DNA from: Chloroflexota bacterium
GTDB taxonomy: Bacteria > Chloroflexota > Anaerolineae > Aggregatilineales > Phototrophicaceae
Reading direction: 5' to 3'
Assembly (NCBI GenBank): GCA_026709625.1
Contig: JAPOSR010000064.1
Span: forward strand, 49,005-113,004
DNA: 64,000 nucleotides
This document shows positions 30,269-63,969 of the stretch, piece by piece (the first letter of the stretch is position 1; each line of letters begins with the position of its first letter). The notes below the pieces were generated by a model. The model worked only from the letters and a program-made list of their open reading frames with translations. It was not told the DNA's origin and made no database searches. The translations under genes were made by a program, and so were the position numbers.

Positions 30269-30803
30269 TTAGTCGTTGTCTATGATTCTGAATGTGCGGC
30301 TGGTGGCGTAAGACAGCATGTAATAACCGTTGGGGAAGCGGTTGCCGCTATCCTCCGACATGGTTACGGTGACTGTTTCGGTGGGCTCGTCGTCCGAGTC
30401 ATTCAACGGTACGATATAGAACACGCTACGATCGGCTCCACTGGAGATCCTCTCTGTGGCACAATTCCCGCTGGGGCTTAGGTATCCGCGCTCTGCGCGT
30501 ACCCGATAGTCCACTCCCAGGGTTGCGCTGCCGCTGAAGCAGAGCCGGAAATGCGCTTCATGGCCATAACCGGCGCCAAGCGACACGCGGTTCACAAAAA
30601 ATGCCGCTGTGTCACCGACATAGCCGCCGAGGCCGGCTTCGCCTTCCGATGCGTTCCCGGAACCATGACTCCACAGAAAGATGACCATGTTCATGCCCTG
30701 CGCCTGGACAACGGGCAAGGCGACTCCAGCCAAAACGAAGAACAAAAGCAGGATGACTAAACGACTAATGCGGGGGGGGGGGGGTAAATTTACGAGACAT
30801 CAT
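30269..30803 (-). CDS. Calx-beta-like secreted protein, start disrupted by poly-C tract
   Basis: The body reads as a mature Calx-beta-like domain (ASEGEAGLGG, FSGSATLGVDYRVRAERG, DDEPTETVTVTMSEDSG) behind a hydrophobic signal segment (LVILLLFFVLAGVALPVVQA). In the frame of this body there is no ATG or GTG between an upstream stop and the signal segment. A good GAGG ribosome-binding site with two ATG codons (30803, 30800) sits just upstream, separated by a run of 13 C. With 13 C these ATGs read MMSRKFTPPPPH and stop; with 12 or 15 C they run straight into the signal peptide. The gene is therefore off as assembled. Confidence 0.75.
30772..30784 (-). repeat. Poly-C(13) homopolymer, candidate phase-variation switch
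   Basis: Thirteen consecutive G on the plus strand (C in the coding strand), six codons after the best start of the secreted-protein gene. The length sets the reading frame. Confidence 0.85.
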
Positions 30804-30893
30804 ACACCTCACTTATTTTTTTTCTTATTCGCAACTGTAGCCGGCAAGATAGCGCTTGTCAAGAAAAGCGAATGCGCTCGCGCCCCAGCAGTT

Positions 30894-61815: not shown

Positions 61816-63912
61816 CTAGCCGCCCGCCTCGCGGATGATCAGCCGTTGCCCGGGATAAATCCAACGTCCCATGTGCTCCAGCTGGTTGGCCATGATGATT
61901 TCCAGCTGATGGGTGCGATAGGCGACGGCGATGGCGCTGATGGTATCGCCCGGTTGCACGACATGGATGATGGAGCCGTCGGGCTGTGGCGGCTTGGGCT
62001 GAACCGGCTGGGCGTAGACTGGCGCGGACGTTGGCAAGGCTCTTGCCTGGGACACATGCTCGGCGGGCTGGCGCTTGACGCAATCGCTGGCAGGAGGCTC
62101 GTCGCCAATTGTAGTTACAATGCCGAAGACCTGCCCTTCAAGGGTATTTTCCAGCACCACATGATGCGTCTTGCCCTCGAATGTAGGACCCTTGGAGAAG
62201 ACGATGTAGCGGCGCGGGATCTTCAGTTGCGCTGCGTATTTGGGGCTTAGCTCAAAGATATGGCGGATTTCTGCGGACAGCCCCGCGCGCACGGCCACGC
62301 GACCGTCGTCGCTGCAGGTGACAAAGCCTTCAGCGACCGCTTGCACCTGCGGCTGATCCACCGCTAACACGAAAGTGCCTACTGCGGGCAGATTCGCGCC
62401 CTCGCGGTTGGGGCGGATCCGCCAGACTTCGGCGGCCGGCGGCTGTCCTCCCGAGCGGCAGATGATGCCGATGGCGCCCAATTTTATGTTGCAATTTTCC
62501 TGCCCCGGGACCGGCTGCCCAGCGCCCTGCGGGTTGTACAAGTCCTCCGAATCATCGGAGCTGTCGTCGGAAGGCGGCTGATTTGGCGTCACCAGCGTCA
62601 CCGGATTGATGATCGTTGTGTCGCAATTGGGGTCGCGGTTGTCGGTCACCACACCGCCCCTGCCGGGGTAGACATATGTGTCGACCGGACTGTTGTTCTC
62701 GAAATTGATGCAGCCGTTCAGCTCGATCGTGGCACCAAAGGTCGCCAGAACGCCCAATCCACCACTATTGTTGCGAAAAGCGACATCGGTGAAGCTGGCG
62801 AAACCTGATTGGTAACTGTTCCATGTGAGCATCACCGACCGGCCACCTGCGGAAGCGGTGGCATTGTCCTCGAAAAGAGCGTTGGTGACGCGCGCTTCGC
62901 CCAGGTTAAGCAAGACGCCGCCGTTGGTAGCGGAGACTTTGACGCGTTCGGCGCTGAAAATGCCCCAGTTGTAGAAGCGAATGCCTTCCAAAGCGACATT
63001 CTCCAGCTGCAGGCGGCTAGTGGCGGCGGTGAAAAAACTGTAACCGGTTCGGCTGCTGCGGATCGATCGACCGTTGCCGATGATGCGGATGCTGACGTCT
63101 TCCGAGATATCGTAGGCGCCAGTCAAGGCGCAGTCAGCGGTCAAGGTGTAAGTCGCCGATACATCCAGATTGCCGGCCGCGGGGAAGCCGCAGGCCATCA
63201 GCGCGGGCGCCGCGATGGCGGCTTGGCTGCCATTGCCGATTGTGCCGCTGCAGGCTCCAGTACTGTTGTCAGTCCAGGTTCCGCTACCTTCATAGATGTC
63301 ATAAGGAATGTTTCCACTGAGCGTCAGGCAGCCGTTGGTGGTAAAGGTCGCGCCAGTCTGCAACAAGACCGCGCCGCCACCGCCGAAATTATTGCGAAAT
63401 ACGGCATTGGTCAGGGTATGGCTAGTGTTGGCATTGGCCTGAATGGCGCTGGCAGTTCCGCCCAAGCTGAGAGGTCGGTTTCGATTCCCCGCGAAGTACA
63501 CATTCGTCAGCGTCGCTTGATTCGCTAGGATCATCGTCCCACCGCCGTTATTGGTGAATGAGACATTGTTGGCTGTTAACGTTCCCGCTCTGATGGCGCC
63601 TCCTGCATGGCTCTTAAAGTTGCCGTTGATGGTGACATTGTTCAGATTCAGGATGGCGCGGGGTCCCGAAATAATTGATAATTCATCGCCGTCCATGCGG
63701 ATGGTATGTCCGCCGCCATTGATGGTCACAGTAAACGGCGGAATTCTGGTGGCGATGGTAAGCCTGCCAGTTTGTACGCAGTCCGCTGTTAACGTGTATG
63801 TCGCGGTCCGAATCGCCCCACTGGCCGGCAAACCGCAGGCGGGGATTGTTTGGGCCAGCGCGGGCGGGACGAGCAAAAACAAGAGCGGCAGAAACAGCCT
63901 GAAGCGCTTCAT
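61816..63912 (-). CDS. Large secreted beta-helix-like protein with C-terminal LysM domain
   Basis: About 698 aa from MKRFRLFLPLLFLLVPPALAQ, a clear signal peptide. Two copies of a beta-helix-like module follow, each starting with a CGLPASG or CGFPAAG motif and containing TATYTLTADC or SATYTLTADC, then LNNVTINGN, LTNVYFAGN and LTNAVFRNNFGGG repeats. The middle has an acidic linker (PSDDSSDDSEDLYNPQG); the C-terminus is a LysM domain (HVVQPGDTISAIAVAYRTHQ) for peptidoglycan or glycan binding. The frame stays open upstream through a 19-C run to the GTG used in the track (63984), which would add MLFFPPPPPPPRKSES. Confidence 0.82.
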   Translation of the reverse strand: MKRFRLFLPLLFLLVPPALAQTIPACGLPASGAIRTATYTLTADCVQTGRLTIATRIPPFTVTINGGGHTIRMDGDELSIISGPRAILNLNNVTINGNFKSHAGGAIRAGTLTANNVSFTNNGGGTMILANQATLTNVYFAGNRNRPLSLGGTASAIQANANTSHTLTNAVFRNNFGGGGAVLLQTGATFTTNGCLTLSGNIPYDIYEGSGTWTDNSTGACSGTIGNGSQAAIAAPALMACGFPAAGNLDVSATYTLTADCALTGAYDISEDVSIRIIGNGRSIRSSRTGYSFFTAATSRLQLENVALEGIRFYNWGIFSAERVKVSATNGGVLLNLGEARVTNALFEDNATASAGGRSVMLTWNSYQSGFASFTDVAFRNNSGGLGVLATFGATIELNGCINFENNSPVDTYVYPGRGGVVTDNRDPNCDTTIINPVTLVTPNQPPSDDSSDDSEDLYNPQGAGQPVPGQENCNIKLGAIGIICRSGGQPPAAEVWRIRPNREGANLPAVGTFVLAVDQPQVQAVAEGFVTCSDDGRVAVRAGLSAEIRHIFELSPKYAAQLKIPRRYIVFSKGPTFEGKTHHVVLENTLEGQVFGIVTTIGDEPPASDCVKRQPAEHVSQARALPTSAPVYAQPVQPKPPQPDGSIIHVVQPGDTISAIAVAYRTHQLEIIMANQLEHMGRWIYPGQRLIIREAGG

Positions 63913-63950
63913 CAGCCACACAGCCAGTCCGGTCGTCGATTCAGATTTGC

Positions 63951-63969
63951 GGGGGGGGGGGGGGGGGGG
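63951..63969 (-). repeat. Poly-C(19) homopolymer upstream of the LysM protein gene
   Basis: Nineteen consecutive G on the plus strand followed by A, GG and eight A. It lies 39 bp upstream of the MKRF start, in its leader or in an N-terminal extension that stays in frame at 19 C. Confidence 0.8.

Follow-up and report, generated by a model that had tools for sequence, protein, structure and literature searches.

Most work on phase variation by homopolymer slippage concerns pathogens from a few phyla. A poly-C tract sets the promoter spacing of the fim genes in Bordetella, the pmp genes of Chlamydia carry poly-G/C tracts, and in Neisseria the tract of pilC lies in the signal-peptide region. Phase variation of pilC takes place via a poly-C/G tract within the reading frame, for which a range of 9-20 is listed, and variable and non-variable homologs coexist between Neisseria species (PMC5953494). 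Here we describe a gene with a comparable tract in a Chloroflexota bacterium, located in a stretch of 64,000 nucleotides (hereafter "the window") and initially proposed from the sequence to be phase variable. This original prediction knew of no such description in the lineage, and a literature search of partial coverage likewise found no paper on phase-variable Chloroflexota genes, nor on phase variation in sponge Chloroflexi. The mechanism is known, and its lineage and modular use are apparently new.

The gene, hereafter the window gene, lies on the minus strand, and the features on which the prediction was built, namely 13 C, a ribosome-binding site, tandem ATGs and a signal peptide in another frame, are all confirmed in the sequence. 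Upstream, a sigma-70-type promoter-like site (TTGACA-17-TACAGT, 30834..30862) has 10 of 12 matches in a region that holds 2 such sites compared with a mean of 0.6 in shuffles, which is suggestive only of a promoter for this gene. A Shine-Dalgarno-like GAGGTG (30805..30810) precedes the tandem ATG codons (30798..30803), which begin at 30803 and 30800. Between these ATGs and the tract stands ATGTCTCGTAAATTTA (also written TCTCGTAAATTTA after ATGATG), and the 13-C tract (30772..30784), the proposed slip site, starts 16 nt past the beginning of the second ATG. Directly 3′ of the tract come GCATTAGTCG and then the signal-peptide segment ISRLVILLLFFVLAGVALPVVQA (30701..30769), which has a hydrophobic peak of 3.27 and a cleavage site inferred by eye, followed by a mature secreted domain of about 143 aa with two conserved Cys (30269..30700). 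The open frame of the signal peptide runs to 30269 and, at 13 C, differs from the frame of the ATGs. This frame had been said to hold no other ATG or GTG, and we found none before the hydrophobic core; its sole alternative start is a TTG at 30745, inside the hydrophobic core and without a ribosome-binding site.

We translated the start of the gene in silico with 9 to 16 C. Only 9, 12 and 15 C open the long frame, giving 176, 177 and 178 aa, respectively; the prediction that 12 or 15 C would read into the signal peptide agrees with these frames, and 9 C does so likewise. The assembly count of 13 C leads to MMSRKFTPPPPH, a product of 12 residues ended by a TAG (30765..30767) that begins 4 bases past the tract and not, as first stated, four codons past it, while 14 C leads to 15 residues. 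As in a contingency locus, a C/G run of at least 9 (here 13 C, a length above chance) is found in the 5′ coding region, and gain or loss of C units shifts the gene into and out of frame in silico.

The protein body had been named Calx-beta, an identity that searches with Pfam, NCBIfam and PDB profiles left unconfirmed. The window protein has no Pfam match at E values up to 10, and of 17 homologs only 3 reach PF03160, with a best E of 0.047. An AlphaFold2 model made from two sequences consists mostly of strands, with a mean pLDDT of 36 that is too poor for use. The mature domain may be described as distantly Calx-beta-like, and the assignment as weakly supported.

Apart from the 13-C tract and a second tract of 19 C, the C/G runs of the window never exceed 6. 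The first-order Markov expectation for runs of at least 13 is 0.001 for the window and about 0.05 for the genome of 3.24 Mb, compared with about 26 such runs counted in the genome stretches that we examined around tracts; runs of at least 10 total 38 in the genome. Runs of such length are found in nearly all genomes of the same genus, and the majority of genomes from the order's other families have few. The long C/G runs of this genome are not the product of chance. Loss of mismatch repair is ruled out as their cause by the presence of MutS1 in all 21 genomes tested, that of the window included, so that any instability would be confined to the tracts themselves. A dispersed intergenic repeat, GGGAGTGG...GTTGCTTTG, C9-11, ACCCCAAACCCCTCC (L041 4995-5005, L041 1724-1732, L050 1913-1921 and L028 1501-1510), carries moderate C runs of another origin, which dilutes plain tract counts. 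Furthermore, across the genus the fixed-spacing pattern ATG-N13-C9 taken by itself shows no enrichment relative to its reversed control, and the argument is therefore based on reading frames and signal peptides rather than on this spacing.

The layout of the window gene, in which an ATG is followed by 6-31 nt, C9-C18 and a signal peptide, recurs across the genus. The same genome contains it in L039 (ATGTCCATTAAGTCTA, C12, signal peptide), in L052 (ATGAAACCCTTCTCTA, C11, a lipoprotein with DUF7424) and, at a contig end, in L073 (start same as L039, C13), all three in frame, and a pattern search returned further cases in congeners, both in-frame and out-of-frame. For one gene shared by G001 and G026, the 114-base/38-residue start after the tract is identical in DNA, and the tract is C11 in the former and C14 in the latter. 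Among the obligate read-through sites, defined by an ATG upstream and the absence of an internal Met, 5 of 16 are in frame, about one third, as expected if tract length drifts freely. The out-of-frame genes have intact bodies, with dN/dS of about 0.2-0.4.

A side test covered every run of at least 10 in the window's genome and in G030, an assembly of few contigs from which 65 runs were read, and a secreted start was scored when the longest frame after the run had at least 100 codons and, within the first 45 residues, a hydrophobic segment. Such starts were found on the C side in 6 of 38 cases in the window's genome and in 20 of 63 in G030, numbers whose independence is overstated a little because neighbouring runs are counted separately. 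The G-side control was at background (2/33 and 5/60, respectively), with nulls of 5.2% and 5.8% at random positions and values of 3.7% and 2.6% at short C runs; secreted starts are thus enriched on the tract side. Counted by locus, with slightly looser thresholds, G030 has about 17 on the C side and 4 on the G side.

The products of the tract-bearing genes are typical of surface variation, with Chlam_PMP repeats, a pectate-lyase-like adhesive domain, LysM, SH3_3, a DUF7424 lipoprotein, weak fn3 and a GT2 glycosyltransferase. The window's genome has, as is usual for contingency loci, a set of such loci with mostly surface or secreted products, and from these sequences a genus-wide set of poly-C switches on surface-protein genes is probable. 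The GT2 glycosyltransferase gene (L062, in G024), in which C12 follows ATGACCGGCATTCA, is assembled out of frame, a state that resembles the phase-variable glycosyltransferases of Neisseria. We also observed poly-G near the start of homologous large membrane proteins (G10 in L024 1501-1510, G11 and G15 in L141 of G030), which is absent from 28 other homologs and is therefore at best local.

The second tract of the window was also part of the original prediction, as a long poly-C tract at another secreted-protein gene, and it is real (19 C, 63951..63969, minus strand), with an N-gap and a C51/G51 run just beyond the window edge on its 5′ side. It is followed by a 710-codon open frame on the same strand (61816..63948) with a signal peptide, beta-helix-like repeats and a C-terminal LysM. 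This gene belongs to a large secreted family (family 2), the members of which were found by protein search. In at least 12 other species, its homologs show C7-C22 at the corresponding position, immediately in front of the signal peptide (C14 in G023, C15 in G006, C12 in G010, C12 in G026, C22 in G012, C9 in G015, C12 in G027, C9 in G005, C14 in G019, C13 in G018, C15 in G020 and C11 in G013), and further homologs have an ordinary start instead. Comparison of the G023 homolog (C14, OFF) with that of G010 (C12, ON) gives a dN/dS of 0.19. In some family-2 genes, including L152, L177 and that of the window, one leader frame past the tract stops at a TGATG or ATGA, where it overlaps an internal ATG located at the signal peptide; in the window this overlap, read directly, is the TGATG at 63910..63914 (minus strand). 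With such an overlap, tract length may act via translational coupling and not simple read-through, and with an internal ATG after it the tract need not be a simple frame switch in these genes.

Eleven tract sites of G030 (L109-L148) share pieces with each other. L130 and L146 are 98% identical in the upstream 80 bases, 67% downstream and 48% in their bodies; between L111 and L123 the upstream pieces are unrelated (40%, as against 45% when shuffled), the downstream pieces are 78% identical and the bodies are unrelated; L111 and L113 are alike on both sides (80% and 82%), again with unrelated bodies. Three start modules join, at poly-C tracts, one common signal-peptide module before unrelated bodies, which suggests for this one genome an exchange of start modules at the tract, and the tract looks like a recombination joint in G030. 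Tentatively, and with slightly less than even confidence, we propose that in this genus, of which at least one member probably comes from a marine sponge, the tract could serve as a slip switch and, at the same time, as a recombination joint by which new surface genes are recruited, perhaps the window gene among them, and could provide an animal symbiont with a large switchable surface.

The neighbourhood of the window gene, with an HAD phosphatase and a putative rhamnulokinase-like kinase (the latter named from its sequence), is kept in seven congeners (G001, G004, G005, G008, G012, G015 and G026), either whole or in the part covered by the stretch examined. The tract is absent from all seven syntenic orthologs, which have a normal start except in G004. 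In this last ortholog (L089), the ATG and the signal peptide are out of frame by one base, owing to a simple indel or an assembly error. With congener orthologs that start normally without a tract, the first part of the signal peptide appears to have been replaced by the tract in the window's species only, as a species-specific recruitment of a genus-wide device. Tracts of different lengths in relatives had been named as support for switching; they are found for homologous tracts in other species, and the window gene itself has seven tract-less orthologs.

Comparison of the window gene with four orthologs gives dN/dS of 0.21-0.38, values that are rough with dS near saturation, and, as in a contingency locus, the frame beyond the tract is unbroken and evolves under purifying selection. 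A paralog on contig C8 (L045/L103) has C18 behind an assembly gap and an intact frame. Its start region (L045 4919-5088) consists of two near-copies of the upstream sequence, a G48 run, a 10-N gap and the C18, an arrangement that reflects either duplication in tandem or the fusion of two alleles during assembly. A search for a same-species copy among named genomes and viral contigs found none.

Taken together, we estimate a probability of about 0.77 that the window gene is a translational contingency locus subject to slipped-strand phase variation at its poly-C tract. This reading is that of the original prediction, and tracts at surface-gene starts, homologous tracts of different lengths, about one third of sites in frame and OFF bodies under selection were all found. 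Slipped-strand mispairing at replication would alter the number of C. At 9, 12 or 15 C (3n), a ribosome starting from 30803 or 30800 would read prolines and enter the signal peptide, and the protein would be secreted (ON); at other counts it would stop within 12-15 residues (OFF). The prolines would fall in the n-region of the signal peptide and leave with it upon cleavage, so that all ON lengths should yield an identical mature protein. We infer that slippage occurs in living cells and that the switch would act on a secreted protein to vary the cell surface, possibly in a sponge host.

The count of 13 C comes from a draft assembly of 80 contigs, in which homopolymer counts may be off by one, and several long runs (C48-C51 above all) touch gaps or contig ends and have untrustworthy lengths. 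The true count might thus be 12 (or 15), with the gene always on and the tract a mere proline stretch, as the in-frame sister genes with clear starts (C12 in L039, C11 in L052) would also allow. We consider such an error unlikely: unique sequence flanks the tract on both sides, so that the long C run is real even if off by one, the tract recurs in many species with different lengths, and the 11 of 16 obligate sites that are out of frame in the genus are too many for a stay-in-frame rule.

Long homopolymers can also cause transcriptional slippage, and selection on OFF bodies fits equally a slip of RNA polymerase or ribosome on the 13 C that would maintain a low steady protein level whatever the DNA length. 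However, slippage is best known on A/T runs, and the lengths of homologous tracts differ widely and freely, which a programmed signal would not need and which makes this explanation quite improbable. A tract at this locus in the window's species only, with the consensus out of frame, is what would be seen in a decaying pseudogene broken by tract expansion. This origin is very improbable for a gene whose downstream frame is intact to the stop, with the dN/dS values given above, whose promoter-like and ribosome-binding sites are in place, and whose paralog in the same genome likewise has a tract and an intact frame.

If true, phase variation by a genus-wide set of switches in Chloroflexota would extend this mode of regulation to an uncultured lineage, and would suggest that surface variation is selected in its cells by a host, by phages or by predators. 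It would also be a warning for annotation, in which many such genes are wrongly called pseudogenes or given a start that is too late. The Chloroflexota-rich microbiome of the sponge Rhopaloeides odorabile has been sequenced, and attachment proteins are enriched in sponge symbionts (PMC8163846); switching of attachment proteins would fit this enrichment, although this is speculation.

Compared with the systems described in pathogens, the window gene shares with Bordetella fim a long C run as the putative control of a surface gene, whereas its tract lies within the coding sequence, past the ATG, and not in a promoter spacer. As for Chlamydia pmp, several of the presumably switched genes in this Chloroflexota genus have Chlam_PMP repeats or beta-helix adhesin-like domains, but the window gene is not a PMP and no autotransporter domain was seen. 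Neisseria pilC has a coding-region C/G homopolymer like the window gene, and frame loss there switches an adhesion-related protein; the protein, the phylum and the cell envelope are different here, where switching is proposed from sequence. Finally, the patchwork of tract-bearing and tract-less homologs between species, as in Neisseria, is seen here at the window locus.
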